From NCBI GenBank assembly GCA_947561395.2, contig OX387193.1, positions 8,432,001-8,496,000 of the forward strand: a stretch of DNA of 64,000 nt, read 5' to 3'. Within the stretch, counting starts at the first letter, position 1. Each line of letters begins with the position of its first letter. Made by a program: the position numbers and the translations under genes. The notes under the pieces were generated by a model. It saw nothing but the letters and a program-made list of their open reading frames with translations. It searched no databases and was not told the origin of the DNA. This DNA comes from Buxus sempervirens (Eukaryota; Streptophyta; Magnoliopsida; Buxales; Buxaceae). Below are positions 3,131-46,913 of the stretch, one piece after another.

Positions 3131-4418
3131 TTAAAGAAAGCCCCCTTTTTTGCAGCATTGAATTGCTCCATCATACATTTCACCCGGACTGTATTTGAAT
3201 TTGAACCCCAAGTCCAAAAGCCTCTTTGATGAGTAGCTAAGTGGTCCATAATCTTTAATATCTCTTAGTGACCTGTGAAATAAAACTATCAATATCATTA
3301 TTCAAAAATGAAATTTTATACAGAAAATGTGCAAAGAAGAGAAAAAAGGAAAACTCGCTCTGGAGTTGCCAGTTGGACTTCAGGGTATCTAGAAGAAAGA
3401 AATTCTACCATCTCATCAATTTTGATGTGATGAGATGAACAGATATACCTCCCTTTCGCATTAGGACAATCAAGAAGGAAAATATGAGCTGAGACAACAT
3501 CATCTAGGTGCACCATGTGTATTGCAAAGCTGTATAACCATTGATCTGCTTTACCTGTACATCAAAAATAAGGCATCAAGACAAAAGAAAACAATTAAAG
3601 CCTCCAAATATATCATAATTTGCAAAACAAATAGGTGTTTGTTTATGTGGAGATTGATATTTTATCATGAGAATTCTACCTGATATCATTGCCAAGGCCA
3701 GACACTGAGCCGGGAAGGTTGGGAGTGATGAAAGGACCGAGGACACAGGAAGGAAGTACAGTCACAAGATCCAATCCATGTTGATCTGCAAATTCTAGAG
3801 GTGCCTTTTCTACCAACGTTTTTGAGATGGCATATGAAGAGAGTTGAATCTTAAGACTTCTGTAGTAGTCTATATCAGCCCATGAGTTCTCATCTACTAT
3901 GTCAAGACCCTCTTTAGATATTACTGCAGCTGCAGTGGAAGTTAAAACAACCCGTTTAACCGTATTAGAATTCACGCATGCCTTCAGTATGCCTGGAGTT
4001 CCCTCTACTGTCCTTCTGGTTATTACTTCTTGAGGCTCATTTACTTCAATGTCTGTGGGGTGAACAACATGAAAGACTCCTACACATCCAGCGATGGCAG
4101 CATTGAAACTTTCTGGTTTGTCAAGATCTGCATTAAAGATCTTGAGATTTTCTGATGCACCCAGAAGGTTTGTAAGGTAGCTGGGGCCTTCCTTTTGTCC
4201 TGCTCATTTTTTGAAGGAAACATAAATAAAGGCTTTTCAGTTCTGAGTTGTATGAGTTAAAACTATTCTCATCAACGTTTTGGCTGAAGTGGAAGAAGCT
4301 GCTTACCTCGGATTGTTGCCCGGACAGAGTAACCTTATTGCAGGAGCCTCATGATCTACCATGATGCAATATACCCAGTTCCACCTGTTACACACACAAT
4401 ACTTTTCTCTCCTTCCAT
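3131..4418 (-). pseudogene. SDR copy A (subtype 1a), vestitone reductase/DFR-like, broken
   Basis: Four exons on the minus strand: 4307-4418, 3680-4199, 3359-3554 and 3131-3272. The family is the extended SDR group of dihydroflavonol and vestitone reductases, which reduce ketones with NADPH in the cytosol. Visible parts are the glycine-rich [10 protein letters not shown] near the start, the catalytic serine in [14 protein letters not shown] (the YxxxK motif) and a C-terminal [14 protein letters not shown] block. It is broken: codon 21 is TAG (4356-4358) where the paralogs read Leu, and a 2-bp deletion near the end of exon 2 shifts the frame. The exon 3 donor is GC (3357-3358) rather than GT, as in copy C. 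The TATA-like box upstream is also altered relative to copies B-D. Copy C is its partner in the block duplication. Family placement is firm; the substrate is unknown. Confidence 0.88.
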
Positions 4419-4437
4419 CCTCTCTGCGTGTCTGTCC

Positions 4438-4597
4438 CATGCCTTCAAATAGTTTATGTACTCCAACAAGAAGCATCTCAACTGCTAAAAACACAGCCGA
4501 CCAATAGGTTTTGGTTAATTTACTACAATTAGCCGGCTGTGTTTTTTGCAGTTGAGATGCCTCTTTTTGGACTATATAAACTAGTTGAAGGCATGGC
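4438..4597. repeat. Inverted repeat in the 5' flank of SDR copy A
   Basis: Arms 4438-4499 and 4534-4597 (about 62 bp, roughly six mismatches) are separated by about 34 bp. Each arm holds the SDR promoter segment with its TATA-like ACTATATAAAC and the GGCATGG stretch that normally precedes the SDR start codon. The right arm points a second TATA box to the plus strand, away from copy A. The same structure stands upstream of copy C. Confidence 0.85.
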
Positions 4598-5126
4598 ATG
4601 CAGCATAGAGAAAACGCTAAAGCCAGCCATATAACTTGAACATTTTTTAGTTGAAAAACTGTGAACTGGTATTTACTGTGTCACAGTTTCCCTTTGTTTA
4701 GGAAATCTGACTTAAAAACAACACAACTCCTTGTAAATATACAGCAGCAGTATTCAAAATTAAGGAAAAAAGAAGAAAAAAAAACCTTTATTAAGAAGCA
4801 TACACACGCTCAGTCACAAACAGCTCTCACTCAGACGTCACTTGAGAGAGAGAGAGATTCCAACTTTGGACTCGACATTTGGGACACTTTCTACAACCAC
4901 ACTTATCTTGGTGAGAGGACTGACCAACTCAGTTGTTTTTTCCACCAAGTGAACACAGCAAGAAAGTAAGAGGGAGAGTAAGTTCGATAGACAGGCTGCC
5001 CATTAACTTTACTGGGAATGAAGATCAACAAGTATACCATCATAATCCAACAATTACAGGAAGCCCTCTAAATAACAAAAGTCAAATTCTTTGAGTCTCA
5101 TCACTCCTTACAAGACATCCTGCTGA

Positions 5127-6421
5127 TTAAAGAAAACCCTTTTTTTTACAGCATTGAATTGCTCCATTATACATTTCAGCCAGACTGTACTTGAATTTAA
5201 ACCCCAAGTCCAAAAGCTTATTTGACGAGTAGCTACATGGTCCATGATCTTTAATTTCTCTTAATTTCCTGTGAGATAGAAATACCACTATTACTATTCA
5301 AAAATGAAATTTCATACAGAAAATGAGCAAAGAAGAGAAAAAAAGGACAACTTACTCCGGAGTTGCCAGTTCGACTTCTGGGTACCTTGAAGAAAGAAAT
5401 TCTACCATCTCATCAATTTTGATGTGATGAGATGAACAAATATACCTCCCTTTCGCATTAGGACAATCAAGAAGGAAAATATGAGCTGAGACAACATCAT
5501 CTATGTGCACAATGTGTGTTGCAAAGTTGTATAACCATTGATCTGCTTTACCTTTACATCAAAAACAAGGTATCAAGACAAAAGAAAGCAATTAAAGCCT
5601 CCTATATATATCATAATTTGCAAAACAAATAGGTGTTCTTTTATGTGGAGATTGATATTTTATCATGAGAATTCTACCTGATATCATAGCCAAGGCCAGA
5701 GACACTGCGACAGGGAGGTTGGGACTGATGAAAGGACCGAGGACTAAAGAAGGAAGTACAGTCACAAGATCCAATCCATGTTGATCCGCAAATTCTAGAG
5801 CTGCCTTTTCTACCAACGTTTTTGAGATGGCATATGAAGAGAGTTGAATCTTAAGACTTCTACAGTAGTCTACATCAGTCCATGTATTCTCATCTACTAT
5901 GTCAAGACCCTCTTTGTTGGAAATTACTGCAGCTAGAGTGGAAGTTAAAACAGCCCGTTTAACTGTCTTAGAATTCACGCATGCCTTCAGTATGCCTAGA
6001 GTTCCCTCTACTGTCCTTCTGGTCAATACTTCTTCTGGCTCATTTCCTTCTATGTCTGTGGGGTGAGCAACATGAAAAACTCCTACACATCCAGCAATCG
6101 CCGCACTGAAGCTTTCTGGTTTGTCAAGATCTGCATTAAAGATCTTGAGATTCTCTGTTGCACCCGGAAGGTTTGTAAGACAGCCTTTTTCTTCCTCACA
6201 TTCTGTTCAATTTTAGAAGGCAAATCAATCAAGGCTCATCAGTTCTCAGTTGTATGAGTGAAATTATGTTCACCAAACCAGAAGAAGTTAAGAAGTAGTA
6301 GTTGCTTACCTCGGATTGTTGCCCGGACAGAGTAACCTTGTTCCAGGAGTCTCATGATCAACCATGATGCAATATACCCAATTCCACCTGTTACACACAC
6401 AATACTTTTCTCTCCTTCCAT
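5127..6421 (-). CDS. SDR copy B (subtype 1b), vestitone reductase/DFR-like, intact
   Basis: Exons 6310-6421, 5678-6202, 5356-5551 and 5127-5268 join in phase into 975 bp, that is 324 residues plus stop, normal for this family (about 320-330). All donors are GT and all acceptors AG. Motifs: glycine-rich [11 protein letters not shown] at residues 10-20 (the usual Thr/Ser/Ala is Ile here), [11 protein letters not shown], catalytic Ser in [23 protein letters not shown] with Tyr and Lys of Yxxx[11 protein letters not shown], and the terminal CCKKKGFL. By family it should be a cytosolic NADPH-dependent reductase of a flavonoid-type or other ketone; the actual substrate cannot be read. The start is fixed by the shared ATGGAAGGAGAG of all copies. 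A TATA-like box lies about 130 bp upstream. It belongs to a run of same-strand paralogs. Confidence 0.85.
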
Positions 6422-6547
6422 CTTCTATGTGGGTGTGCGTCTGCAGGCACAATGATTCTTTAAGATAGTACCATCTTAAATATGATATTGGATGGTAAAC
6501 AGTAGCTACCTTCAGCATTTTCTCTATGTTGTGATGACTTCAACTAG

Positions 6548-6554
6548 TTTATAT
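6548..6554 (-). promoter_or_regulatory. TATA-like box of SDR copy B
   Basis: The minus strand reads CCATATAAACTAGTTGAAG about 130 bp before the ATG. The same TATAAACTAGTTGAAG context recurs upstream of copies C and D and in the inverted repeats, which supports it as the shared core promoter. Confidence 0.5.
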
Positions 6555-6559
6555 GGTTC

Positions 6560-7391
6560 AAAATTAAAAGAGCCAACTCAGATGCAAAAGACACGGCGAA
6601 ATGTTAAAAACTAACCAAAGGCAAGTGGATGAAAGGTGAAGACAAGGTTGACATTCATGTTGATGGCATTTATTTGATTCCAATATAAGGCAAAGACAGA
6701 AGCTAACAAGCATAAAATAATATAATATTCTCTTGACACGTCTTCTTGTGGGCATTTTCGCAGGATTATGTCTCTTTGCTTCATCAAAAAGGCAGTGCTT
6801 TCATAGAATCGGATCCAGACCTGGTAGAACCCGTTTGTGAATCTCTATTAACTCCTCCCTCAAAAGCCTTCAAATCAGAATGAAGAAAATGAGGAGCAAC
6901 TAGTTTATTAGCTCATTTCCTTACCCCAAAGGAAGAAAAAAAAATGGGAGCTGTGTTGGATCATTCATAGCAGTAACTAGATATTTTTTAATGGTTATTT
7001 TATTTCGTCTATTCTAAACAGATGCCTCCTGTTTCTTCATTCTTTGCTTCATTATCAAGATGTCAATGTGTAAAAGCATAGTTAATACGGTATTTTGTTG
7101 GTTATTACCTTAAATGAATTCAAAACAGGGTATGCCTATGATATGAGGATTAGGTGAGTGATGCCTACGCATGCAACTGCCCCAAGTGTATGTAAGATAG
7201 GTATGATGGTGTGAATAACAAGCAGAGATAAAGTCACAGTCTAAACTTGCAAATACCCGAAGAAACACAAAAAAGGGATTTGAATAAACAGAATAGTAGC
7301 CACTGCAAATTGTTCAACTTCAGTCATATTGATATACTTTATCCAGTAATTATTGTAGTTTGCAATTGATCAAGAAGAAGATCAAAAGTAC
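6560..7391. other. Spacer upstream of copy B
   Basis: There is no gene here. The first half matches the spacer upstream of copy D (17260-17662). The end next to 7392 resembles intron 1 of the type-2 SDR genes, which belongs with the exon relic that follows. Confidence 0.6.
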
Positions 7392-7510
7392 TTGGATTAG
7401 ATATGATAATGGTGAGAACAAAGTAGCCGTGTTGAAGAAGCCTCATGTTCAGCCATGATGCCATGTACCCTGCTGCACCTGTCACACAGACTACCTTTCT
7501 CTTCTTCCAT
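7392..7510 (-). pseudogene. Orphan exon 1 of a type-2 SDR gene
   Basis: The minus strand starts ATGGAAGAAGAG and then, in a shifted frame, reads VCVTGAAGYMASWL..LLQHGY, matching exon 1 of copies G, H and I ([16 protein letters not shown]). It is 119 bp against 121 bp in the others, a 2-bp deletion just before the Rossmann motif. The exon ends in CCAA followed by a GT donor, as in copy I, and some intron 1 sequence follows. Exons 2-4 are absent. It lies upstream of copy B, where the type-2 gene stands in the other two modules. Confidence 0.75.
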
Positions 7511-8042
7511 GCTTGGCTCTTTAACTTTTTTCTGTTTCTTGCAGTTTAACCATGCAAGAGTTTCTTTATAGACGTTACATATGAGATTAAGGTTGCGTTT
7601 GGGATTTCTGGTGATTACAGGTAAGTACTTATAGAAAAGTTATCTTTATTCAAGTACTTATCCAGAGTTCTAAAAGGTGGCTAATTTGAAAAACTGAAAT
7701 TAGTGTTGGTAAAAACTTGTATTCAAGCACTTCATAATATAGTTAGCCACCAGAACACTTCATTAATTTCATCTTGACATGGAGAAACACCAACTATTCA
7801 ATTTCGCATAAACTTAAATTCCAGGATCTCAACGCATTCAAGGAAACAATCTCAAACCCATCAAAATATTGAAAAAAAAAAGAAGGAAAAAGCACGTTAA
7901 AAAACCCAAAATTTCCCGATTCACACTGCAGCATAATTACAAGCCCAGAACCAAATCCGTGACCCGAAAACCCTAACTCAAACAGTTTAAGAACAATGCG
8001 ACAAGATAATATGAACTGTCGAAAGAAAAAGACGAAACTCAC

Positions 8043-8265
8043 CACGGTTTGCAGAATCAGGAGTGAAGATCACAGAAGCTTTCAAGAAGGCAGCAGTACT
8101 GTCACCGCTAGAAAGGAGTCTAGAAGAAGGGTCAACGAACTTCGACAACCAACCTCCGTCTTGTGACTGAATCACCGGCCGGTCATAAGGAGTCGTCGGC
8201 GACTTCTTCTGTATGGTCGGCTTGGATTCGTGATGTCGATTGGGCCGGTATACGATTAAACAAAG
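8043..8265 (-). pseudogene. Fragment of a plant NUP1/NUP136-like nucleoporin (first exon)
   Basis: The minus strand encodes TTPYDRPVIQ, then GGWLSKFVDPSSRLLSS, then a short tail ending at a GT donor (CCGTG then GTGAGT at 8042-8041). The TPYDRP...GGWLSK(L/F)VDP signature is that of the N-terminus of the plant nuclear basket protein NUP1/NUP136. About 300 bp of apparent intron follows (to about 7750), but no further exons are in reach and no ATG precedes the homologous part. It sits exactly at the seam between blocks 1 and 2; the sequence just upstream of it equals the first bases of the window, so another copy may lie to the left of base 1. Identification rests on motif memory and is moderately sure. 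Confidence 0.55.
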
Positions 8266-8305
8266 GTACAAAATCCGTTTTTATTGATCAAGCTATTTGT
8301 GGTTA

Positions 8306-9421
8306 TGTTTACGCCCTATAAAACCAACGAATAAGAAAGGGACACGTAGTGTCCATGTGGTTTATTTAAGCCATGACAACAAAACACGTAAGCCTTGGAC
8401 AGTTGGACAAACCACGTCAGCATACGCACAAAACCAAGAATACAGTTCAAGGCACGCAAGCCAATGCAACAGAATCACACTTACAACTATCAGAAGATCG
8501 TACCATCAGTCGTTCAAGAGTAACCTATTTTAAAGATCGTGGCCAAGCGGTTATCTGTCTGGAGCAGAAAACTGAAGACTGCCAACCACCATGAAGATCG
8601 TGCAAAAGTGGGACGTTAAACAACCATCAAAGATTGGCTATAAAATGCACCAATTTGAAGAGCTCGATGACACAATCCATCCAACCGCAACCGATTATTA
8701 TATTATTTTGATCATCCGTGATCTTTTATCTCCTCTCCTACACTGTAGCCAGAAGGATAAACTAGGACTTCTCTCACTGCTTCCAGTCGCAGTGACATCT
8801 TAAACCCCTCTTTACTCCGATTAACACCAGAATCTTGCCACCGAAGGGTAAGTTGAGGCCGGCCCTAACTCGCAGTTCTGTGTCCACAGAATCCCGAGCA
8901 ACCGGTCCCGAGACTCGCTCTGTTCAAGACAGGTGACTTGTGTATCTTCGGTTAAACAGCAATCTAAGGTGAACCCCCTGAATTGGCTTTGCTAATAGCC
9001 GCCCCCTTCCTCCTACGCTTATACCTGATTACGGCTATAAAACCAGGACAGGCCGGTCCTGCAAGCCCTGTCAGTTTTCTTTTTATTTTTTGTTTCCTTT
9101 TTGAGGATTATCTGTTGTCATTCTCGGCCGTTGGCCGATTTTATAATAAAGGAGTTTTATGTGCCATTAGTGGCTTTCGCTTTCAAATACTTACAAGAAC
9201 CCAAACGAAGACCGAACCCCTAATCTTCGTATTATCGCCTAACCCGTTTTATTACAAGTGACTTGCAGTACGACTGAACCAACTCCGGTTTAAATTCAGA
9301 ACAGGTGCCCGGGGTTAGGACCCGACCCGAAATCATTGTATCAAACGATACTGGTACGCCCGCGTAGAGACACATCATCAACATCACCACGTGTCCATAC
9401 CGGCCCAATTTTGGATCAACA
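8306..9421 (+). mobile_element. Probable solo LTR, about 1.1 kb
   Basis: The insertion starts TGTTTACGCCC and ends GGATCAACA (TG...CA ends), and is flanked by GGTTA (8301-8305) and GGTTG (9422-9426), a 5-bp target duplication with one difference. The paralogous site near base 45 is empty. A TATA-like GGCTATAAAATG lies near 8637. There is no internal domain. Fossil; superfamily not resolved. Confidence 0.6.
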
Positions 9422-9741
9422 GGTTGGAAGCAAAATATAAAGCGGAAGCAATGGATCAAAGCATTGACTTGGGAGAATAGTATGTACCATTGAATTCTCT
9501 CCCACACAATTCAAATTTCTAAATACGTTTTTGTATCCCATTTCCCAAGTTGTCAAGTCTGATTGTGGAAGTGGAAAGACCATGGGTAATTCATTTTTTT
9601 TTTGGTAAGCCAATGGGTAATTCATTTGGTGCAATTTGCATAATCTTGCATCATTAACCAATAGAGACCCAAATCATGGTGTGGTTGAAGCCTTGAAGGT
9701 TGTGCATGTTGCGTAAGAAAGAATTTAGTGCATGTAATGAT

Positions 9742-10301
9742 TAGGGCTGGCAACGGGTCGAATACGGTACGGATCTGTCATGATCCGAATCCGAACCGAA
9801 AATAAAAATCCGATATCCGAATTCGATCCGAAATTCGACGGATCTTTTATATGTGAATCCGAATTCGAAACCGAATTTATATAATGTATCCGAATTCGAA
9901 ATTCGACCGAATAAATAACCGAAATCCGAATTCGATCCGAATTAGATCCGATTTGAACTTAAAACTCAAAAGTTAAGTTTAACTATTAAAGCAAATTTTA
10001 GTTATCAAATCTAATGAGCCATATAAATATTAAAGCAAGATATGAATAAGGATAGTTCAAGCATGATTTATACAAAGTTTACCAATGATTTAATGAAAAG
10101 TATATGTTGATTTCGGTTCGGATCTTTTTCGGATCGGATATGGACAGATTCGGATTCGGATCCGAATTCGGTCGGATCCGAATTCGGTCGGATCCGAAAT
10201 CCGTATTCGAACCGCGGATCTATATTTTCAGATCGGATTCGGGATTTTCGGATCTGATTCGGGTCGGATTCGGATATATATCCGACCCATTGCCAGCCCT
10301 A
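9742..10301. mobile_element. hAT-type MITE, 560 bp
   Basis: Ends TAGGGCTGGCAACGGGTCG and CGACCCATTGCCAGCCCTA form near-perfect inverted repeats. An 8-bp target duplication GTAATGAT flanks it (9734-9741 and 10302-10309), the hAT length. The paralogous site near 351-358 is empty. The interior is dense with TCCGAATTCG-type palindromic words pointing toward each end, with an AT-rich centre and no transposase. Confidence 0.88.
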
Positions 10302-10326
10302 GTAATGATACAAGCTTGTGAAGAAA

Positions 10327-11204
10327 GATCCCGCATCCTCTCCGACGCCCCATCTCCAACATTTTACTGCAGCAAGGAGAGGGTGCTGCGTGTCATCATG
10401 GGTCTTACAGAACTAACGGCAACGTTAAAGTTTCGCCATAATATTTCTAAACTAAAAAACCCTAAATAAAATAAAATGAGTCGTCTTCTCCCCACTTTGA
10501 AGAAGCAAAAGTCGACCTGCAAAAAACCTGTAACTATAAAAAAAACAAAAGGGCAAAGCTTCACCTTAACATTTCTAAACTTTAAAAAAAAAACCTAAAT
10601 AAAATAAGACGAAGTTGTGTTCTCCACTTTAAAGAAGCAAAAGTGGACATGTAAAAAACCTCTTAGTATAAAAAACGTAAGGGAAAGGGTTCGCATCCTC
10701 TCCTCCAACAAAGGGAGATTGTAGGAACGAGTTCTAGTTCTATGTTTTTCCAAAATCGCAAAACCCTAACCTTATTTTCTTCACATTTTTAGTTCCTTTA
10801 AGATGGGATTTGAAGTTGCAATTCCTAAATATGAATAGAGTTCTAGTACCGTATCTTTTCAAAATCTCAAAACCCTAACCCTATTTTCTTCACATTTTTT
10901 AGTTCCTTTAAGATGGGATTCGAAGTTGCAATTCCTAAATCTGAATATGTGTTCAATGTTCATGTCTTTCATTTTTGTCTTCATCATTTTTTCACTACTA
11001 ACCCAACTTTGTTGTTGAAGACGAGGTGGGTTTTTCTATTTTAAGTTTTCCTTTTTCATTTAAAAATGTTCAAACAAGACGTTAGTGTTGACTGACGTTG
11101 CTGTCTACTTGAAAGCAAATTATGAGACCTACGACGACACGTGGAGGCGAGCTTTTGATGCAGTAAAATTGTAGGAGGGAGGGCGTACGAGAGGATGCGG
11201 GCTC
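10327..11204. mobile_element. Mutator-like (MULE) MITE, 878 bp
   Basis: Terminal inverted repeats of about 60 bp begin GATCCCGCATCCTCTC and, on the other side, GAGCCCGCATCCTCTC. The 9-bp duplication GTGAAGAAA flanks it (10318-10326 and 11205-11213), as expected for MULEs. The paralogous site near 369-377 is empty. The interior holds two pairs of tandem units of about 120 bp (one with AGAAGCAAAAGT, one with AGATGGGATT). There is no transposase. Confidence 0.85.
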
Positions 11205-13855
11205 GTGAAGAAAAGGGAGCCAATAGAAGTCTTAGGACTTGACTTCTCAAACCGGTTAGAAATCCAAAAGACTTACTCACTTTGGAAGACTTTCCTTCTT
11301 TAAAACAACGCCCCTGCGTCTATACACTCCTTATGCTATAAAAAAACATGAATACTAACTTCTTTTCCTTTGTCCTCACAAAAAGATTAAGCGTGAAAGT
11401 CGCCCGCTACAAATGCAACGTGGAGAAATGGTTTTATGCAATACTTTTTCAAGAGAATTCAGAATCAGTAACTCAATTCTTAATAATTGAAAAATAATGT
11501 AACTTGTACAAAACTGTATACTAACTTGTATGCTTATAGATAGGTTTATACCTCTTTATCAAATAACTTATACAATATCATGTATTGATTTGTATATTGA
11601 TAGATTGACCTGTAATATAGAGATTTTATAATTACCATGATATAAAAATGTCCTCCTAAATCTTCTATAATCATGGTTTGTTGCAAGTATTTATAATAAT
11701 ATTTTTGAAGAAAATTTTGGCGAAGGTTTAAATTATATTTGTTGTCAATTATTTTAAAATATATACCTGATTTTTAATTATAAAAAATTAAATGACTTAA
11801 TCTAAATTATTTTTAAAAGCACCATTAGAAACCAATTTTTCTTTTATAGAAGACGGAAGGAAGAGTATACTTGACTTTCAATGCCCCAATCTAAATTATT
11901 TTTAAAACCATAGGCCAAGTTTTCAAGAGAAGAGTTGCGGTAGGTGTTGTCGTTTTATAAACCAAGTAATACTGAATTTCAAGAATTAGGGAAGTAGGTC
12001 AAGCACGAGAGTAGGAAAACAGGCCAATTAAGGACAAACTTTCTTTTATATTAAAAAAAAATAGGGGAAGCAAGTCAAGCACGAGGATAGGAAAACAGGT
12101 CAAGCAGAACTTCCACTAGATTAGTTGTTAAGGACTTCTAATCTTTATTTGTTCTATTTCCTGGTTTCTTCGTATCAAAAACAAAAAAATAAGGGTCAAG
12201 CAGACAAACTTTCTTTTATATTAGGTATAAAGAAGGGGGAAGGGCAATGCGAACTGAGACCTATTACCCAAAAAAAAAAAAAAATACGAACTGAGACCAA
12301 TTCATCTGATACGTTAAACGGACGGATGAATGCCACGTTGCCAGTGTCAGAAGAGGACCGCACACCCTCAAAACCCATACCAGCCGGTGGTATCACCGTA
12401 CCATTGGATTCTGGGACAGAGGAATTGCATTCATGAGAGTTGGGATCTGAAAGAGTCTACGAAACAAAATTACGAAACCGCTACTAGCTCCCTCAACTCA
12501 AAAGTGTTGTCAAGTAGGATGGAAACGAGCGGGGTTTTTATAGAATTTAACTAATACCAAACCCTAACCCGCCCTATCAAGTCAGTAATAGAGCCCACTG
12601 GGTTGTGCCGATTATATTATGAAATAATAATTATTAATAAAATATGCATTTTTATATATAAAAATAATACTTTTGAAATTTAAAATAATATTTTAAAATA
12701 TCTTAGGGGTGGATTACCGTTTTTAACCCACCCCATTGCCATCCCTAGTCCGTCAAGGAGCTGCTCTACTATTTTCGGGTCGAAGTAGTTACTCATGTAA
12801 AATTACCAAACATCTTTTTCATTTTAAAAAATGCTTTAGTAAGCTATTCTAGCAAATTAAACATCTCCTTCCATGGTGAACAATAAATTGATTAAGAGCT
12901 GAGTCAAGGCATCAGCTTCAAGATTCTTTTCATTTTACATATCTATTGTGAAAGTCATTATAATGACAATATCATCAATACAAGCTAGTTCCCATCAAGG
13001 TGAGCATCGTGCTCTATCAAAAATCATAACTTAAGTTAATTTATTTTTATATAAATCGTGTTTTGTTAAACCATACATATAATATTTTTAAGTCTTTCTC
13101 TTGATCTCTTAGGCCCTTCAGTATGCATCTTTTAATGCTTTCTTACATATTCATCTCTTAGCCTTTGCTCTACATATCTAAACCATTTTAACCCACTCTA
13201 CTCTCTTTTTTTCCCTGCTATGCCCAATTGCTTTTGAATATTTTCATTTCTTACTAAAATTTCCTAAAAAATATATTTATCTTTTAATCATTTACATAAT
13301 TTAAGCATTAGTTGAAAGCAATCATCCCCAAAAAAAAGGGAGGGGAGGGAGAGGGGGGAGAGAGAGACAGAGTCATTTTGCAACATCGATTATTTATCTC
13401 CACAGCTATATTATTTGAACAATTTTAGTTGAGAACTGTGAACTGGTAAATCTGACATAAAAACAACACAACTTGTAAATATACAGCACCAGAATTCACA
13501 ACTAAAGGGAAAAACCCTTTATTAAAAATCATACAAACACTCGGTCACAATGCTCTCATTCAACATGAGACACCTCACGAGAGACAGACTCCAACATTGG
13601 ACCAGAAACTTTGGACAAACTTGATACATCCACACTTGGCTTGGTGAGAAGATTGACCAAATAAGTTTTTTCGTCCACCAAGTGAACACAACAAGAAAAG
13701 TAAGAGGGAGAGTGAGTTCGATAGACAGGGTACCTATCAATTTTCTGGGAATGAACACCAACGAGTATACCATCATAATCCAACTTATACAGGAAGCCCT
13801 TTTAATAACAAGAGTCAAATTCGTTGAGTCTAATCACTCCTTGCATGACATCTGA

Positions 13856-15127: not shown

Positions 15128-15145
15128 CCTCTCTGTGTGTCTGTG

Positions 15146-15307
15146 CCATGCCTTCAACTAGTTTATATAAGTCCAACAAGAGGGATCTCAACAGCAAAAA
15201 ACACAGCCGGCCAAGTGGTTTTGGTTAATTTTATACAATTAGCCAGCTGTGTTTTTTGCAGTTGAGATGCCTCTTTTTGGACTATATAAACTAGTTGAAG
15301 GCATGGC
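15146..15307. repeat. Inverted repeat in the 5' flank of SDR copy C
   Basis: Arms about 15146-15210 and 15244-15307 with a spacer of about 33 bp, homologous to 4438-4597. Both arms carry a TATATAA box, facing opposite directions. Confidence 0.85.
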
Positions 15308-24586: not shown

Positions 24587-24636
24587 GAAATCCAAAATCA
24601 ATCAAAACGAGTACCATGAAAACCAGTGTTTAAACC

Positions 24637-35293: not shown

Positions 35294-35784
35294 TATGCCA
35301 TGCCTTCAATTGGTTTATATTAGTCCAACAAGAGGCATTCCAATTGCAAAAGACACAGCCGGACAATTGAATATGCATAAAACTATTAAAAGAAGCACCT
35401 CTGTGCTCTGATACCGTTCATTTAAGTTTTCTTTCTTTCCCTTTGTTTGTTCCAAAATAAATAAATAAATATTAAAGTTCACAACAGGTAACAGCATCTA
35501 AAAAGCTCTTGTCTTTTACCTTTTATTTTTTAGTAGAAAGATCCACAATCGAAGCTTGCCTCTTGTCCTTTGCAGATTGCAGTAATCCCTCCATATCCTC
35601 CAACATCTGCGCAGAAGGTAATTACTGTGACAAATTAAAGTTGAAAAACATGACAAAAAGGAAATCCATAATTCTCTTCATTTATTAACTTTAACGAAGA
35701 AAGCTTATTTAAACTAGAAACACGGTAATAAAACAATAACCAACCCAAGTTACACTACTCTTAATAGGATCTGTTTAGTTTCTT

Positions 35785-35898
35785 ACTTCAAGTCAAAATC
35801 AAAGAAGCTTTTGGACTTGGGGTTCAAATTCAATTACAATCCGGCTGAAATGTATGATGGAGCAATTCAAAACTGCAAGGAAAAGGGCTTCCTTAATA
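35785..35898 (+). pseudogene. Inverted relic of SDR exon 4
   Basis: The plus strand reads [20 protein letters not shown] and then AIQNCKEKGFL, the last ~37 residues of type-1 SDR genes, but opposite to all other copies. The normal stop has lost a base and the frame runs on to 35911. No other exon is nearby. Flanking 35.5-36.2 kb has a direct repeat of about 28 bp (TTAATTGAGC(T/C)AGAGAGGC) and no gene. Confidence 0.82.
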
Positions 35899-36271
35899 TA
35901 AGCAGAGATTAAGCCAAGAGTGATGTGTGTCAATAAATTTGTATCATGTTTGTGGAAGATAAGCCTTAATTGAGCTAGAGAGGCTTCTATATATACTCCA
36001 AGCTATGTGTTTGTGCATAGGTCTAAGTATCTGGTCCAGGGGTGGAGTCTTAATTGAGCCAGAGAGGCTTCTATATAATGTCTGTTCCATGCTACTAACA
36101 GTCTTAAAAGTTTGGGCTTTTGTAACCATGCTTATAATATTCGGTTTCAATAAAAGGGTTTTTTTTTCTAATTATAAATTTGCAACTGGTTAACTTATGA
36201 GCTTATTTCTTACACAAAAGGAAAAAAGAAAATATGGAGCTATGTTGGATCATTCGTAGCAGATTTTTTTG

Positions 36272-37580
36272 CTATGAATGACATCTGATTAAAGAAAGCC
36301 TCTCTCTTTTTTTGCAGCTTTGAATTGCTCCATCATACATTTCATCCGGACTGTACTTGAATTTGAACCCCAAGTCCAAAAGCTTCTTTGATGAGTAGCT
36401 ACATGGTCCATTTTCTTTAATATCTCCTAATGACCTGTGAAATAGAAATGCCACTATTACCATTCAGCAATGAAATTTCACACAGAGAATGAGCAAATTA
36501 AAAAAAAAGGAGAACTTACTTCGGAGTTGCCAGTTGGACTTCTAGGTATCTAGAAGAAAGAAATTCTACCATCTCATCAATTTTGATATGCTGAGATGAA
36601 CAAATATACCACCCTTTCGCATTAGGACAATCAAGAACGAAAATATGAGCTGAGACAAGATCATCTACGTGCACCATGTGTGTGCAAAGCTGTATAACCA
36701 TTTACCAGCTCTGTACATCAAAAACAAGGCATCAAGACAAAAAGGAAAAAAAAACAATTAAAGCCTCCAAATATATCATAATTTGCAAAACAAATAGGTG
36801 TTTCTTTATGTGGAGATCGATATATGAGAATTAATTCGACCAGATATCATAGCCAAGGCCACAGACACTGAGCCAAGAAGGTTGGGAGTAATGAAAGGAC
36901 TGAGGACACAGGAAGGAAGCACTGTCACAAGATCCAATCCATGTTGCTCCGCGAATTCCAGAGTTGCCTTTTCTACCAAAGTTTTTGGGATGGCATATGA
37001 AGAGAGTTGAATCTTAAGACTTCCATAGGAGTCTATATCAGCCCATGAGTTCTCATCTACTATGTCAAGACCCTCTCTAGACATTACTGCAGCCGCAGCG
37101 GAAGTTAAAACAACCTGTTCAACCGTCGAAATCACACATGCCTTCAGTATGCCTAGAGTTCCCTCTACTGTCCTTCTGGTTATTACTTCTTCAGGCTCAT
37201 TTATTTCAATGTCCATGGGGTGAGCAACATGAAAGACTCCTACACATCCAGCGATGGCAGCATTGAAACTGTATGGCTTGTTGAGATCTGCATTAAAAAT
37301 CTTGAGATTCTCTGATGCACCCGGAAGGTTTGTAAGACAGCCAGTATTGTCTTCCTCACACTCTGTTCATTTTTGGAAGGAAAAATTAATTAAGGTTCAT
37401 CAGTTCTCCATTATACGTGTAAATTTCTGTTCACCAAACTAGTGATGGTTAAGAGGAAGACATCTCTTACCTCGGATTGTTGCCCGAATAGAGTAATCTT
37501 GTTGCAGGAGCTTCATGATCAACCATGATGCAATATACCCAGTTCCACCTGTTACACATACAATACCTTTCTACTTCCAT
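36272..37580 (-). pseudogene. SDR copy F (subtype 1b), several frameshifts
   Basis: Exons 37471-37580, 36841-37362, 36520-36710 and 36272-36434. Exon 2 is open and starts ECEEDNTGCLTNL as in 1b; it holds the active-site Ser region VLTSAAAAV and YAIPK (Tyr and Lys kept). Exon 1 has lost 2 bp right after the start codon, exon 3 has lost 4 bp at its start plus 1 bp before HMVHVDD, and exon 4 gained 4 bp in an AAAAAAAGAGAGA run, so the tail reads RERLSLIRCHS instead of the usual GFL. Splice borders remain GT-AG. Not a working enzyme gene. Confidence 0.87.
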
Positions 37581-38001
37581 CCGTTTTGTGTGTGCGTATG
37601 TGTGTGCGTGCATATGATGATTGATTAAGGTAGTACCACCTTAAATATGATATTGGATGACAAACAGTAGCTACCTTCAGCCTTCTCTCTATGCTGCCAT
37701 GTCTTCAGCTAGCTTATATGGTCCAAAAAAAGGCATCTCAACTGCAAATATAAAGCTCATGATGATCTGGACCAAAAGACAAACAGTAACCAAATTTCAT
37801 GCTTCATTGGTTCGGTTGCACATGAACGAACTCAAGTTTTCTTCATTTGTTTTATTTATAATTTTTGTCTTTCCCACAAAGCAAACTCCAGCCTTTAACG
37901 ACATCAGATAGAGAGATACGCAAAACAAATAACAAGACAAATACACAAACAGGTATTGGAATTTTCAAAGAAAGAGAAACAATCAAAAGAAGAAGCAATT
38001 A

Positions 38002-38344: not shown

Positions 38345-39843
38345 AATGATTTGCGATTCTTGGGTTCAGCTATGAGAACCGAACCCAAACCCCTTCATTT
38401 TTTTTTAATAATTTATTTGCAAGTATCTATCCAATATTTATGCAACATCATTGGTGATACAGTTAGCTCATAGTTCACCCAAAAAAAAAGATACAATTAG
38501 CTCACAGGATGATACATCAAGCTTATGAATTTAAACCAAAATACCTTTTATAAAAATCTGCAACTTGGTTTGGGTGCTTAGAGATTTCTCCACTGCGTGC
38601 AGATGGTAGCTGGTGGAAGGTGGACAGTGATGGTGATAGGAGGAGGTCAATAGCAACAGCAAACCACCGGAGAAAAATGAAAACGATGGCCGGCGTTAGC
38701 AGTCGCCGGCGAGCCTAAGATTCAGGCGAAATGGGGGTTTCTACTGAAAACCCCGAACAGAACCGAATGTGTGTACAATGGTCACCGGCGATGGGAACCA
38801 GTGGAAATTGATCGGAAGAGGGCGTGATAGCCGAAGGAAGCCGAGGTCGACGATTGCAGTGAGTCCGCCGGAGACGAGAGAGAGTTGAGAGGAAGGCCCC
38901 AAGTATACCCCAATCCCCCTTCTTAGTTTTCGATTTTTCCTCTTGAAGACCCCCCAAATCTGGTGATAGCCTAAGAGAGCTAGAGAATGGGAGCGGAGCC
39001 AGAGAGTTGGTGCCGGAGAGAGAACCGAGAGAGAGAGACCGCAGAGACAGAGAGAGAGCTGGCGAGAGCCCCATATTTCTTTGGACTATTAGCAGATATC
39101 GCCGCTAAAAATTACGATTCCTTCCTCACCTTTTCCTTTCCGTCTCTCTTTCTTCCCGTGACGGCCTGCGAATAATTTAAGCGAATGCCTCGAGCTCAAC
39201 GCAACATTCTCATCTTTCAGAAACCCTCCATTAGGAAACCTATCCAAATCTCCGACAAATTATTCAGAAACATATGCAGCCATCTAACATTCACTGCAAA
39301 CCTAGCGTTTTCTGAACCAGAGGCCGGGTACCAACGAACGATCATGAGATGGAAGATCAGGAAGGATGATGAAGAAACTGTGACCGTTTGAAAGGATCTT
39401 ACGCTGCATTCGAAGAAGAATCTCTTTGGATTTTGCATTCATATCGATCTCTTTCTAATGATCTTAGGTTGAGTTTTCCAGATATTGCGATCAGATCCCA
39501 TAGGGACTGAAGAAGCCTATCCGCCACTGCCCCCGCTCCGTATCGCAGGTATCATAAAAAAATTCAGAGCCCTAATCATAAAAAATAAAAAATAAAAAAT
39601 CTCAGAGAGATGGTCGTGTCATTGTAGATCGTTCTTAAGATCATATCCTTGAGAGTTAGGAACCTCTTCATTTAGAACATCACAGAAGAAAACACCTATC
39701 GACTGGAGAAATCATCACAGATCGAAAAATAGAGTATGAGAATGATAGAACAGACTCTACCGTATTTTATGACCTTAAGTCGCATTACATTTGATAACCT
39801 AAGTACATGGAAATCATAAGACCATATTTTCCAGGAAGGCAAA
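38345..39843. other. Duplicated spacer between copies F and H
   Basis: Homologous to 18000-18100 plus 18788-20460. No gene recognised; a short plus-strand frame (39185-39391) is kept in the partner as well but matches no family I know. Confidence 0.45.
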
Positions 39844-41398
39844 CTAGAGAAAACCCTTTTCTTTGCAACATTGAATTGCTCCATCATACATCTCCTCCAT
39901 ACCATACTTGAACTTGAATCCCAGGCCTAAGAGCTTCTTTGAGGAGCAATGTATTGGTTTTTCTTCTTCCACATCTCTTAAACAGCTAGACAAAAAATAG
40001 TAAGAAAAGAAAAGAAAGCAAGTATTAATTGGTTACTACCAACCAGATAGAAGAAATGGTATGGAAATATTAAACTCTGAAGATAACAGGGGATTTACTC
40101 TTCTGCAATCTGAAGTTCTGGATATTTAGTGTACAAGAATCTAGCCGATTCATGAACCGTTTCATCGGTCGATGAGCAAATATATCTCCCTTTTGCCATT
40201 GGACATTCAAAAAGAAAAATATGAGCATCAACAACATCATCTATATGCACTAGTTGCATCTTCCTGCTGGCTTCGAACAGCTCTACATTACCTGAGTAGC
40301 AATTAAACTTGGTAAGAAATAGAGTCTGTCAAAAGGGATTAAGGATATGGTATTAAAATTTGTGTAATAATCATATTAGATAGTTCAGATAATTTGATCT
40401 GGCCTTCAAAGTTAGTAGATGTAGAATAAATTAAAATAGAAGATACCCCAGACCAGGGGCAGAGCAATTGAAAAACTGGCTGGAAGGTTGGGACCAAGGA
40501 AAGGTCCAGCTATCAAAGAAGGAAGTACTGTGACCAGATCCAGTCCATGCTCATCTGCAAATTGTAAAGCTGCCTTTTCAGTAAGTGTCTTTGTTACAGC
40601 ATATGATATCCCAATAGCATTCATGGATCTACAGAATTCGACATCAGTCCACATGTTCTCATCAATTTCCTTGATTTCTTTGCCATGGCTGTTAAAAATA
40701 GATGCAGCAGCAGCTGAAGAAGTGTGAACAACTCTCTTCACTGTTTTAGAAGTCAAGCATGCTTTAAGAATGCCCATTGTTCCCTCCACTGATGTTTTGA
40801 TCTTTCTGTCCAGAGGAATCTTGTCTTCCAAGTCTATAGGATGAGCTAAATGAAACACGCCGATGCATCCATCGATGACGGCCTCAAAGCTTTCTGGCTT
40901 GTCGAGATCGGCTTCAAATATTTGGAGCTTTTCTGATGCACCAGGAAGTATTTTGAGGTGTTCTACATCTTCCTTGAATCCTAGTTAGCAGATGGATTAA
41001 AACTTCGGTCAACGCTTTACGTTTCAGATTTAAATATACATGGATCACGCTAAAATATATAATATCTTGTTTGATTGATAGTCCTAATTTTAGGAAGATC
41101 AAATCTCAAGCAAAACATACAAATACCAGAAAGATCAAATAATTAAAATTTGTTGAGCATGCAAACAAGCTTAAAAAACATGAAATAGACTATTAAGCAC
41201 AGTATTTCAGTCATCCTGATCTATAACTTAGCTGTAATCTTTATAATTTGCAGTTGAAGAACAAAATTTTGGATTACTTGGATCAGATTGGATAGTGGTG
41301 CGAACAGAGTAGCCACGTTGAAGGAGCTTCATGATCAGCCAAGATGCTACATATCCCGCTCCGCCTGTCACGCACACAGTACCTCGCTCTCCTTCCAT
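39844..41398 (-). CDS. SDR copy H (type 2), vestitone reductase/DFR-like, intact
   Basis: Exons 41278-41398, 40447-40980, 40099-40291 and 39844-39985 join to 990 bp, 329 residues plus stop, all with GT-AG borders. Motifs in order: [14 protein letters not shown] (cofactor loop), [36 protein letters not shown], active-site Ser in [24 protein letters not shown] (YxxxK), [44 protein letters not shown] and CCKEKGFL. By family it is a soluble NADPH-dependent reductase; type 2 differs from type 1 by a [15 protein letters not shown] segment after the active-site Ser, so a different substrate is possible. A TATA box stands about 60 bp before the ATG. The only intact type-2 gene here. Confidence 0.87.
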
Positions 41399-41457
41399 TC
41401 GGATCTTCAGTTCTTGATGTTTCTTAGAGATGAAATTTCCAGGAGGGACTCTAATTC

Positions 41458-41464
41458 TTTATAT
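41458..41464 (-). promoter_or_regulatory. TATA box of SDR copy H
   Basis: The minus strand reads ATCAATATAAAGAATTAG about 60 bp before the start codon; the same sequence precedes copies G and I. Confidence 0.55.
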
Positions 41465-43411
41465 TGATGCTAGATATGAATTTAAGATTCATGCCATTCC
41501 TCTTTGACCTGTTGCACCCCCCTCTCTCTCTCTCTCTCTCTCTCCCCCTCTCTAAAGTCTCAAGGAAAAACAATAGTCTAAATGCTTTTTTGTGGCGAAG
41601 GCAATTAGATGTTGACCAACAAAAGATAATTGTATTTTTTCAAGTCATCTCTTATTGTGGAATTTAGACAAACCTTTGTCACTTCTCCCTTAGCCCATCA
41701 AGCTTCATGTTTTTACACTTTTTACTCTAAATGGCCTTGTTGTTTGAGGGAGTCACAGGCCTGTATATATAGACCTTCACTTTTTTCTTTCTAAGTAATG
41801 TAGGATCCGAGATCTCATAACTGTACTGCTCATAGGCTAGGTTTTAGAACACTGATGTGCACAGTAATCTTCCTTTCCAGCATCTTCTTAGAAGAAAAGT
41901 CCGGTCATTTAACATCGATATCTCCTCACAACTGTAAAACTTAAAATCTTTCCCCCGCTTATACGAGGATGCAATTGATTTTTTAGTGATGTTGTTATTG
42001 TGTGGTTTATGTTTATTGGATAGTTGTTTCACTGGTTTTGAATTGTGAATAAATATCTCTTAGGTGGGTTGGGTTAGAAGAGATCTTAAAAAATGGGAGA
42101 ACAATTAAACTAAAAACAGTCAAGTTTCAATCCACACCAAAATGATGCCTTTGTCATTATTTATATGAAAAGAGGAAAGGTTGAGTAGCAACAACTATTG
42201 TTAGTATAATGTTCCAAACTTCTATTACACAAAAATAATAATCGGGTCATTTCAAGTTGAGGGGTCAAACCCTAACCCAACCCGTTTACAACTGGGTTGA
42301 GAATTCATGACCCGAACCGAACCCGCAGGTTGAAACAGTCAACCCAAACCCGCCTAAGACCGGGCGGGTTGGCGGATCACAATTGCCACCTCTAATACAT
42401 ATGTGGTTTTTTTTTTTTAACAATTTTTCTTTAGCTTGTTCGGGATTTCCAAGAGTGTAACTTGTTTGGATTTAATTCCAACAACATTGACTAATCGGTG
42501 AGAATTCCTCTACCGTTTGTCAATAAATTTGCCGACTGGTCTATAACTATTATAAAGCCAACCCTGCTTTTCTTGTTGACATTCACTTCCCAAAAATCCT
42601 TCCAGTTCTATTTAATTTTACTCTTTGTCACCGCCACATGTCATAACTGACTATTCATAGCCTCTCTGCTTATAACACTTTTGGCATACGATCGCGTGTC
42701 ATAACTAACTGTCCATAGCCTCTTTGTTTCTAATTCTTTTGCTATGTCACATCCATTCTCCTAATCTTTTATAATATAAACTTGTAATGTCTCTTATGAT
42801 GTAAGATATCATCAAGTTGGTGTACCCATTTCTCCAGTACCCACCTCATGTGTTTGCCAATGGCAAAACAATGATCTAGAAAACTAATCACCAGCATTTT
42901 GATGTATTTTCGAGTTTCCAATTTGCACCACCTGTCCTTTAAGATAGCATTCAAAATTGGAAAGCTTCGAATTACAAAAGATACAGTAGTTGATGTCCTC
43001 TGCATTTTTCTCTAGTGTTGGTTTTTGGTATTTGAGAGAGGTACTATCACGTGGAGCATCTAATCGTTACTAATTTTTCAACAACAAAAAACTTTCTTAT
43101 ATTTACAACAAGCAAAAATACTTGTCCGTTTGATGTTCAATGCGGTAAAATCTCTTTCAAAGTGCAGGAACCAATGCAGGAGAAAAGTTCCGAGGCCGCA
43201 AATAGAAAGATAACGGGATCATATGTTTTATTGGTGGATGCCTGGATGGATTACTCTTATTAGGCTTTCAGCCTAGCTTGAAGATTTTAAAGTGGGTCGG
43301 ACCCAAACCCATAATTTAATCTGATTTACACATATGGGTCCTTAGTAAGAGGTAAAAGCCAGCCGACAATGAACACATTTCCGAATAGAACTATCTCGAG
43401 ATCCTTCTACA
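41465..43411. other. Spacer between copy H and the MLF 5' duplicate
   Basis: A CT microsatellite lies at about 41517-41548. Near 42245-42400 there is a decayed hAT-like end (ACCCGAACCGAACCC, ending ..GCCACCTCTA). The remaining sequence matches about 51010-52320 upstream of MLF. Minus-strand frames such as 42769-43005 are also in the partner but resemble nothing known. Confidence 0.5.
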
Positions 43412-43953
43412 TAGGGTTGCTTATCGAGCTGGCCCTGGCCCGATATGGGAACGTTTAGCCCGTGCCTGGCGAGCCATGGGCTGGGCATGGACGGACCGTG
43501 CCATGCCTAGCCCGTAACCCAATATCCTAGGTAGGGCCTAAACCGTGGCACGGCTAAGGTTGGGTTGTGCTGTGGCACACGGGCCGCCCAAGTGCTACAT
43601 AATAAATTTATTAAAAAAATCGGAAAAAAATAAATGAAAAACACAAAAATTCTAAAAAAAATACATTTACTATTTACACAAATTTCTTACACATATTGGA
43701 ATATAATTTTCTCCAAAATTATTAAAAAAAAAACCCTCAAATGTTAAAAAAAACCTCATTTTGTTAATGCAAGCCCGTTGGCCAGCACAGTAAGACACGC
43801 TTAAAGTGTGCCGTACTACCCGCGTGCTTGGTAGTTGGTACCCTAGACACAACATGGCCCGCAAATAGATGCTGGGCCGTGTCGGTCTCGAACACGCTTG
43901 AAGCATTTTGGGGGATGCCGTGTCCGTGTTGGTCCGGCCGATAAGCATCCCTA
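43412..43953. mobile_element. hAT-like non-autonomous element, about 540 bp
   Basis: Ends TAGGGTTGCTTATCGAGC and the complement of TAGGGATGCTTATCGGCC. GC-rich flanks (CCCGTGCC, GGGCCG words) surround an AT-rich middle. It is absent from the right tandem unit near 52365. An 8-bp duplication could not be confirmed, probably because a second MITE inserted 12 bp further on. Confidence 0.6.
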
Positions 43954-43965
43954 TTACGTAACAAG

Positions 43966-44295
43966 CAAGGTTTTAAGTTTCGGTGGCCCTGGGCGTGTCG
44001 CCCAGGGCACCGAACGGCATTTCGGCGGCACGCCGGCGGCGTGCCGCCGAAACGCGGGAAAAATTTTAATGGCAAAAAAAAATAAAAAATTATGTTTTTT
44101 TAGATTTCGACGAAATTTCGACGGCACACCGCTCCGTTTTGCCGGCACGCCGTCCGTTTCGCTAAAAAAATTTTTAAAAAAATTACATTTTTCGCCCGTT
44201 TCGGTCGGCACGCCGACCGTTTCGCTCGAAATTTCGGTCCGTTTCGCCAACGACACAAATTAACGATTTCCCCAAGCGAAATAGTAAACCTTGGG
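43966..44295. mobile_element. 330-bp MITE, MULE-like, GC-palindrome family (copy 2)
   Basis: Ends CAAGGTTTTAAGTTTCGG and the complement of CAAGGTTTACTATTTCGC (the second end read just inside the duplication). 9-bp duplication CGTAACAAG/ACTAACAAG (43957-43965 and 44296-44304, two differences). It holds a 15-bp-arm perfect palindrome at 44020-44052 (arms CGGCGGCACGCC) and further CGGCACGCCG words. Inserted just upstream of the duplicated MLF TATA region; the right unit near 52372 is empty. Confidence 0.75.
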
Positions 44296-44797
44296 ACTAA
44301 CAAGTGCGTATATTTTTTTTCAATTTACGCCTTCTTGTTCCGATTTATATTTTTTCTCATTAAGCGCAATCACGCTTAGACCAGGAGCATCTTTCTGCAG
44401 CAGCCAGGGTTTCTTTCCACGTTTTTGTGCCTTGTGATCTCGATCTTAGAAAGGTAAGTTTTCTTCACTTCTCCCGAATTTAATTTGTGAAGCTTAGCTT
44501 CTTTTCCTTTGATTCTTTTTGTTTTGATCATTGCGGCGTTTCTTGAGATTTCACGTTCTTGGAGTTGCGAATTTCGAGCAAAATTTGTAATGGCTAGTTA
44601 TGGTCACTGATCCTTGTTTTTTAATTGTTGTTGGTGCCCGACCGGTTTCGTCGTGCTATCAACGCACAAGAAAACGTTCATTGCCGAGTATTCATTCGGT
44701 TTCTTGATCGATTTAGATTCATCTTGTGCATTTTATGCTTTCTCGAGAAATTTCGGGTTGTTTATGAAGATTCAGTTAGTAGTTTCATTTTCCTTTT
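44296..44797 (+). pseudogene. Orphan MLF promoter, 5'UTR exon and part of 5'UTR intron
   Basis: Matches 52370-52858 upstream of the MLF coding region: CTTCTTGTTCCGATTTATATT, the GCAGCAGC(C/T)AGGGTTTCT leader, the donor AGAAAG/GTAAG (44453/44454) and about 340 bp of intron. The TATA box is altered (GTATATTTT against GTATAAATA) and a MITE abuts it. No coding exon follows; SDR copy I lies downstream in the opposite direction. Confidence 0.85.
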
Positions 44798-45706
44798 TCA
44801 TTGTAGATCATTGTTGAGATCATATCCTTAAGATTTAGGAACCTCTTCATTAGAATGCAATCATTTCATTTAGAAGATCACAGAAGAAAACACCTATCGA
44901 TTGGAGAAATCATCACAGATCGAAAAATAGAGTATGAGAATTGTAGAACATTAAATCTTTAACTTTCAAAGAGGCCATAAATATTTACAGTAATACTAGT
45001 AAGATTTGCATAAGTAGGATTATGACCATAAGACACATTACATTTGATAATCTAAGTACATGTAATCATAAGACCATATTTCCCAGGAAGGAAAACTAGA
45101 GAAAACCCTTTTCTTTGCAACATTGAATTTCTCCATCATACATCTCCTCCATACCATACTTGAACTTGAATCCCAGGCCTAAGATCTTCTTTGAGGACAA
45201 ATGCATTGGCTTTTCTTCTTCCACATCTCTTAAACAACTAGACAAAAATAGTAACACAAGAAAAGAAAAAAAATTATTGGTTACTACTTACTACCAACCA
45301 GATAGAAGAAATGGTATGGAAATATTAAACAATGAAGAGAACAGGGGATTTACTCTTTTGCAATCTGAAGTTCTGGGTATTTCGTGGACAAGAACCTAGC
45401 CAACTCATGAATCGTTGTATCAGTTGATGAGCAAATTTATCTCCCTTTTGCCATTGGACATTCAAAAAGAAAAATATGAGCATCAACAACATCATCTATA
45501 TGCACTAGATATGTCTTGCTGGTGGCTTTGCACATCTCTACATTACCTGAGTAGCAATTAAACTTAATAAGAAATAGAGTCTGTCAAAAGAGATAAAAAA
45601 ATGTGATATTATAATCATCATATTAGATAGTTCAGATAATTTGATCAGGCCTTCAAAGGTGACAATATGCTAATTTGTCAGTAGGTCCTAACCAACATAT
45701 GATCTT

Positions 45707-45813
45707 TTTTTTTGATAGGTAAATAAGGTATATTATAAGTAAACTAGGAAGTTGGATCATAGGTTCACAAATAGTGTACCCATGATACAATGGAGTCAAC
45801 CATACAGCACCCA
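45707..45813 (-). mobile_element. 5'-truncated LINE tail in SDR I intron 2
   Basis: Starts with a poly-T run and GATAGGTAAATAAGG, resembling the 3' end of the LINE at 58245 (T13, GATAGGTAAAATGAG), with a shared AGTGTACC(C/T)ATG word. Flanked by ATATGATCTT duplications (45697-45706 and 45814-45823). Copy H lacks it. Confidence 0.75.
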
Positions 45814-46134
45814 ATATGATCTTGTTTAGGAAATATTAAGTTTAAGCTATAATTTTAATTGATGACACAGCAGATGTAGAATAAAGTACAAGAGAACATA
45901 CCCCAGACCAGAGCCAAAGCCATTGAAAAACTGACTGGAAGGTTGGGACCAAGGAAAGGTCCAACTATCAGAGAAGGAAGTACTGTTACCAGATCCAGTC
46001 CATGCTTACCTGCAAACTCTAAAGCTGCCTTTTCAGTAAGTGTCTTTGTTATAGCATATGCCATCCCAAAAAAATTTATTGATCTACCGAATTCGACATC
46101 AGTCCACATGTTCTCATCAATTTCCTTGATATCT

Positions 46135-46224
46135 TTGCCATGGATGTTAAAAATAGATGCTGTGTCAGCTGAAGAGGTGTTGCCATGGCTGTTAAAAATA
46201 GATGCAGCAGCAGCTGAAGAAGTG
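46135..46224 (-). repeat. 45-bp in-frame tandem duplication in SDR I exon 2
   Basis: Units 46135-46179 and 46180-46224 encode [15 protein letters not shown] and TSSADTASIFNIHGK. Copies G and H have one unit. It doubles the segment that carries the active-site Ser. Confidence 0.92.
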
Positions 46225-46913
46225 TAAACAACTCTCTGCACTGTTTTAGAATTCAAGCATGCTTTAAGAATGCCTTGTATTGCCTCCACTGAGGTTTTGA
46301 TCTTTCTGTCCAGAGGAACCCCGTCATCAAAGTCCATAGGATGAGCTAAGTGAAACACACCAGTGCATCCATTGATGACGGCCTCAAAGCTTTCTGGCTG
46401 ATCGAGATCGGCTTCAAATATTTGTAGCTTTTCTGATGCACCAGGAAGTATTTTGAGGTGGCCTGCATCTTCCTTGAATCCTAGTTATCAGATGGATTAA
46501 AATTTCGGTCAAAGCTTTGCATTTCACATTTACATATACATGGATCATGCTAAAATATTTAATATCTTGTTTGATTGATGGTCCTAATTTTAGGAACATC
46601 AAATCTCAATCAAAACATAAAAATACCAGAAAGATCAAAGAAATAAATTAGCACACTCTGAAATTTGTTGAGCATGCAAACAAGCTTAACAAACATGAAA
46701 CATACTATTAAGCACAGTATCAGTCATCCTGATCTATAGGTTAGCCATAAATCTTTATAATTTTCAGTTGAAAGAACAAAATTTTGAAGTACTTGGGTCA
46801 GATCGGATAGTGGTGCGAACAGAGTAGCCATGTTGAAGGAGCCTCATGATCAGCCAAGAAGCTACATATCCTGCTCCACCTGTCATGCACACAATGCCTC
46901 GCTCTCCTTCCAT

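Follow-up and report, generated by a model that had tools for sequence, protein, structure and literature searches.

Gene arrays that evolve by birth and death with interlocus gene conversion, of which plant resistance-gene clusters are an example, hold numerous copies close together, of which many are broken and some are mosaics. Duplicated dihydroflavonol reductase (DFR) genes have been described as shaped by recombination, in an account that, as far as its accessible part goes, treats DFR across angiosperms (PMC5155217). For the short-chain dehydrogenases/reductases (SDRs) of Medicago truncatula, the accessible part of PMC8430790 reports no tandem duplication, and literature text searches found no paper on a vestitone reductase-like gene cluster. 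Here we analyzed a 64,000-nucleotide stretch of the Buxus sempervirens genome (contig OX387193.1, C19:8432001-8496000; hereafter the window), which carries nine minus-strand copies of one four-exon gene resembling vestitone reductase and DFR, from the stop codon of copy A at 3131 to the start codon of copy I at 46913. The locus shares with the DFR case the kind of enzyme and the recombination and divergence of duplicates, but forms an array of about 30 copies with broken members; it differs from resistance-gene clusters in that its genes encode a metabolic reductase.

The window covers the right-hand end of a larger tandem array that continues to the left, and we regard it as highly probable that this is a long vestitone-reductase/DFR-like SDR array under birth-and-death evolution with gene conversion. 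The sequence shows overlapping segmental duplications of blocks of one or two genes, many copies that were inactivated separately, and exchange between neighbours. At least 30 exon-2 copies lie on C19, 29 of them within 198 kb (C19:8280625-8478475) and one more at 8142 kb; copies outside the window are named below by their position in kb. Three further copies were seen on C9 at 44.19 Mb. None of the 19 scored matches of a whole-genome PF00106 search fell inside the array. A splice-site search gave open models for 13 copies on C19, and among the nine in the window only for B and D (324 amino acids each) and H (329 amino acids). The nearest further full copy, Z, is also open and lies 1.5-2.8 kb to the left of the window. 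Type 1 copies have exons of about 112, 525, 196 and 142 nt, and type 2 copies of 121, 534, 193 and 142 nt; type 1 is divided below into 1a and 1b according to the start of exon 2. The nine copies are as follows:

3131-4418, minus strand: copy A, 1a-like start, grouped with C, broken
5127-6421, minus strand: copy B, 1b, open 324-residue model with exons 6310-6421, 5678-6202, 5356-5551 and 5127-5268
13856-15127, minus strand: copy C, 1a-like start, broken
15831-17122, minus strand: copy D, 1b, open 324-residue model, mosaic
20464-21950, minus strand: copy G, type 2, broken by a single stop at 21538
29681-32760, minus strand: copy E, 1a-like start, at the base of the right-end clade in exon and full-gene trees, broken
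36289-37580, minus strand: copy F, 1b, broken
39844-41398, minus strand: copy H, type 2, open 329-residue model with exons 41278-41398, 40447-40980, 40099-40291 and 39844-39985
45096-46913, minus strand: copy I, type 2, broken by a stop at 45439

The number, strand and order of these copies, and the intactness of B, D and H alone, agree with a first-pass annotation made from the window sequence only. The broken copies carry stops and frameshifts, which in A, C and E are private to each copy. Exon 1 of copy A contains two stops, at 4358 and 4337, and exon 2 a 2-nt deletion near 3702; C has a 19-nt deletion near 14768, a 1-nt deletion near 14477 and a 1-nt insertion near 14208. Copy E is interrupted by a stop at 30700, and its intron 1, 1.9 kb long, begins with GA instead of GT. 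Copy F has lost 2 nt at 37573 (codon 3) and 1 nt near 36683, and 4 nt are inserted near its 3' end. Copy I also contains a 45-bp in-frame tandem duplication within exon 2, at 46135-46225. Comparison of the lesions found no stop or frameshift common to A, C and E. A TGA at codon 39 together with insertions of 1, 2 and 6 nt had seemed to be present in both A and C, and was rejected as an artefact of forcing their KEG start onto the exon-2 start of B; read from their own acceptors, the KEG starts of A and C are in frame.

Lesions shared between copies do occur elsewhere in the array. The 8371 and 8376 kb copies (8370501-8372400 and 8375600-8377400) carry the same 178-nt exon-2 deletion with identical ends, and this pair stems from a copy that was already dead when it was duplicated. 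The 8283 and 8300 kb copies, on the plus strand, are 97.8% identical over 2.5 kb, and their homology to the 8414 kb copy ends at the same place in exon 2, making them a second dead pair.

The duplicated blocks can be recognized from the sequence around the genes:

88-17627, no strand assigned: A-B unit (88-6923) and C-D unit (9435-17627), a duplicated two-gene block including the spacer and left flank, matching in pieces
39619-52860, no strand assigned: H unit (39619-44798) and I unit (44798-52860), a tandem duplication whose halves match in pieces and abut at 44798
4437-4599, no strand assigned: palindromic element resembling a miniature inverted-repeat transposable element (MITE), 5' of A, with an inverted match at 15144-15306, 5' of C
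7416-7514, minus strand: relic exon 1 whose highest scores are against type 2
35798-36156, plus strand: a tenth piece, an exon-4/3' fragment with 95% identity to F over 81 bp

Identity between the spacers of the A-B and C-D units is 90.9%, and the 5' side of D plus G matches the 5' side of F plus H. The first-pass annotation had seen three repeats of a 1a-1b-2 module in the window. Blocks of neighbouring genes were indeed duplicated together (A-B with C-D, and D-G with F-H), but a three-fold triple is not supported: all that the E-F spacer has in common with those of A-B and C-D is a stretch of about 75 bp from the dispersed palindromic element, and the first unit holds type 2 only as a scrap of exon 1. 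The units are best read as overlapping duplications, not as three copies of one triple. The MITE-like element or pieces of it lie mostly next to the 5' ends of copies (4437-4599, 15144-15309, 35295-35373, 6503-6619, 17198-17314 and 37668-37748).

The relic after B, reported in the first-pass annotation as a type 2 exon, does score highest against that type (I 111/136, G 108/133, H 105/131; best type 1 score 93/120). It lies within a 288-bp block, 7296-7583, that is missing from the Z unit, and no flank homology of the relic to G, H or I was found; the idea that it is what remains of a third type 2 gene lost from the same duplication is therefore unsupported. Its divergence from G, H and I is 18-20% and that of the duplicated flanks is about 7-20% with gaps counted, so that divergence does not decide its origin. 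The tenth piece matches the 8423 and 8426 kb copies over greater lengths, on their 3' sides.

Exchange between neighbours is seen for A and D, where the edges of the shared tract were placed by eye on the alignment:

3637-4131, minus strand: exchange tract in A, identical to D at 489 of 495 positions (695 of 794 outside it)
16336-16832, minus strand: counterpart of the tract in D

Over about 500 bp, A and D are 98.8% identical, compared with 87.5% outside, whereas A and C match at 435 of 475 positions within the tract and 756 of 796 outside. This is a tract of excess identity with both flanks reverting, the pattern looked for in interlocus gene conversion; the sequence exchange is visible as the tract itself, and we infer gene conversion as its mechanism. 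In a block-signal test, none of 200 shuffles reached the observed signal. At polarising sites judged against F, B, Z, E and the 8297 kb copy, three show the 1b state in A and three the 1a state in D; the relaxed count is seven against four. A sides with D against C at 35 sites, 22 of which are changes private to C.

Block signals were also obtained for D, B and Z. Within columns 100-488 of the gene alignment, copy D mostly resembles F, and elsewhere it is closer to C; Z carries an A/C-like 3' end. A single class label per copy would thus be too simple, because A is mosaic and D, B and Z give block signals too. D shares its 98.8% tract with a broken copy while all 1a copies in the window are dead. 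This allows a speculative extension, which we put forward only tentatively as a minority possibility: broken copies may act as donors to living ones, a 1a part may survive in D as an open 1b/1a mosaic, and the Thr-bearing 1b copies described next may be a functionally shifted subgroup.

The protein family was identified from both domains and structures. The exon-2 pieces of E, G and B that were scanned matched the Pfam families Epimerase and 3Beta_HSD above the cut-off. Spliced B aligned over its full length with vestitone reductase (2p4h; E = 9.8e-104), its best solved relative, with DFR close behind; spliced H likewise aligned over its full length with 2p4h (E = 5.5e-96), level with 9m3k, which is named a ketoreductase, and followed by DFR. 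In the accessible part of PMC6688129, vestitone reductase is assigned to SDR460A, at odds with the DFR-like match found here. B and H resemble vestitone reductase (2p4h) and DFR (2c29, 8fem) throughout and keep the glycine motif and the Tyr and Lys; relative to 2p4h, type 1 lacks about four residues where exons 1 and 2 meet. The presumed position of the Ser-Tyr-Lys triad was placed by alignment. H keeps all three residues, and B and D keep Tyr and Lys but, like Z and in contrast to vestitone reductase and DFR, have Thr at the position of the catalytic Ser. Thr in place of this Ser is tolerated in some extended SDRs, and B and D may therefore still be active. Among broken copies, the position holds Ala in C and F and Thr in A and the 8423 kb copy.

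This substitution raises the alternative that Z, B and D were kept by selection for a new activity, marked by Thr at the Ser position and by the changed start of exon 2 in the cofactor-loop region. Thr occurs in all three open 1b copies and Ser in eight of the nine open copies with a 1a-like start (that is, all open type 1 copies on C19 other than B, D, Z and the 8297 kb copy) as well as in H, and three of the four 1b copies are open. However, Thr is also found in the open 8297 kb copy and in the broken A and 8423 kb copies; the survival of 3 of 4 copies against 9 of 23 with a 1a-like start is not significant (Fisher test, 0.29; the 8427 kb piece, in which the start of exon 2 is unread, counts among the 23); and the ratio of nonsynonymous to synonymous rates (dN/dS) between B and Z, 0.55 (0.34-1.03), gives no whole-gene sign of positive selection. 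We consider such neofunctionalisation unlikely.

We hold it still more improbable that the window records three copies of a 1a-1b-2 module in which 1a was already failing before amplification, as the first-pass annotation proposed. The block homologies of A-B with C-D and of D-G with F-H are what speaks for the module. The proposed early failure of 1a was judged by the grouping of A, C and E, by the survival of copies and by damage shared among the 1a copies.

As for the class, the described marks at the exon 1/2 border were found in eight of the nine copies: a QKEGPS start of exon 2 in A and C, (D/E)CEE in B, D and F, as also in Z, and a longer exon 1 ending in SDP in G, H and I. Copy E, which had been grouped with A and C, begins exon 2 with GPKEGTEYL, which resembles QKEGPS less than it does the starts found in the array beyond the window. 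The KEG mark carried by A, C and E is an array-wide state and no sign of a 1a group: the other readable type 1 copies on C19 have a KEG-type start with small variants, mostly GPKEGAGYL (QEG at 8280 kb and KER at 8283 kb). Nine copies with such a 1a-like start outside the window are open.

We constructed an exon tree from 26 of the 30 modelled copies (nine in the window, 18 others on C19 and three on C9), leaving out the 8283, 8294 and 8300 kb copies and that at 44186 kb on C9, and a gene tree from an eight-row alignment with introns, run in full and without the exchange tract. The exon tree has a right-end clade in which E is outermost, with A, C, (B,Z) and (D,F) inside it; 2% of the bootstrap trees group A, C and E. 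In the gene tree, A+C was supported at 98/98 for the full gene and 100/99 without the tract, and Z+B+D+F at 96/96 and 97/97. E lay outside the other six copies with support of 87/91 for the full gene, and grouped weakly with 1b (61/73) without the tract. The approximately unbiased (AU) test did not reject A+C+E (p = 0.080 for the full gene and 0.246 without the tract). On these trees, A and C belong together, and E changes its place when the tract is removed. The grouping of all three is thus unsupported rather than disproved, and the tree of the nine copies, proposed as a check on the class, shows A, C and E apart only in a weak sense.

As for survival, the window had been taken to depart from equal loss, with two 1b copies, one type 2 copy and no 1a copy intact. 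When three of nine copies in three classes stay open, 54 of the 84 arrangements (0.64) give a 2/1/0 split, which is the commonest outcome of equal loss, and the probability that 1a keeps none is 0.24. Copies with a 1a-like start are open in 9 of 20 cases outside the window and 0 of 3 inside (Fisher test, 0.25), and four Fisher tests on the counts by class gave 0.25-1.0. Survivor counts were accordingly rejected as evidence of unequal loss. The pattern of survivors at this end of the array fits chance and needs no special explanation.

As for damage, A, C and E lack a common stop or frameshift although shared-lesion pairs do occur in the array (8371/8376 and 8283/8300 kb), and the nine open copies elsewhere on C19 argue against a class that was failing before it was amplified. 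The E-B comparison gave a dN/dS of 0.43 (0.30-0.60), as expected of a gene that was broken late, and suggests long constraint on E. The Ka/Ks comparison proposed for the intact copies gave 0.46 (0.27-0.72) for B-D.

Several observations weigh against our preferred reading of an array with separate, chance losses and gene conversion. GC in place of GT at the donor of intron 3 is common to A and C alone. The dN/dS values for A-C, 0.74 (0.42-1.51, an interval that includes 1), and C-D, 0.89 (0.55-1.51), are above that of B-D, with overlapping intervals. Because of the shared donor and the A-C ratio, a weakening of the ancestor of A and C before their duplication is possible, and the well-supported A+C clade and the AU result for A+C+E would also fit some early failure. 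The B-Z interval, which reaches 1.03, does not establish constraint for that pair taken by itself. The block test may respond to uneven rates as well, and with such small numbers the failure to reject chance survival is no proof of it.

The least credible alternative is that some broken or duplicated copies are collapse or phasing errors of the assembly, which would suit G and I, where a single stop is the only clear lesion, and E, with one stop beside its donor change, but the nearest copies in the window (A-D, D-F, G-H and H-I) differ by about 9-14% over the gene, far above sequencing error, and flanks and insertions vary from unit to unit.

Other elements lie between and beyond the copies. 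Between G and E, at 23322-28934, apparent pieces of a Copia-like polyprotein were recognized by eye, and the same interval contains a region of tandem repeats at 26.3-27.5 kb. A minus-strand frame of 131 amino acids at 48730-49125 matches the NFXL1 RRM-like domain (PF24435; E = 2.9e-34). The segment 58457-63967 resembles a non-long-terminal-repeat retrotransposon, with a 1078-residue frame matching RVT_1 and zf-RVT and adjoining frames of 156 and 610 residues.

Unequal crossing-over between misaligned units probably produced the duplications of this birth-and-death array, many of whose copies were inactivated separately. Exchange between neighbours, as seen between A and D and in the A/C-like 3' end of Z, is attributed to interlocus gene conversion. 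The copies that stayed open are predicted to encode NADPH-dependent reductases that may act on a small phenolic or related ketone.

The inference of a failing 1a class fails because the rest of the array can now be seen. When an array is viewed from one end alone, its modules and survivors come to look strictly patterned, and the missing copies reverse the inference. With at least 30 exon-2 copies, 13 of them open, together with mosaics and two shared-lesion pairs, the array suits the study of gene conversion and decay in plant metabolic genes.

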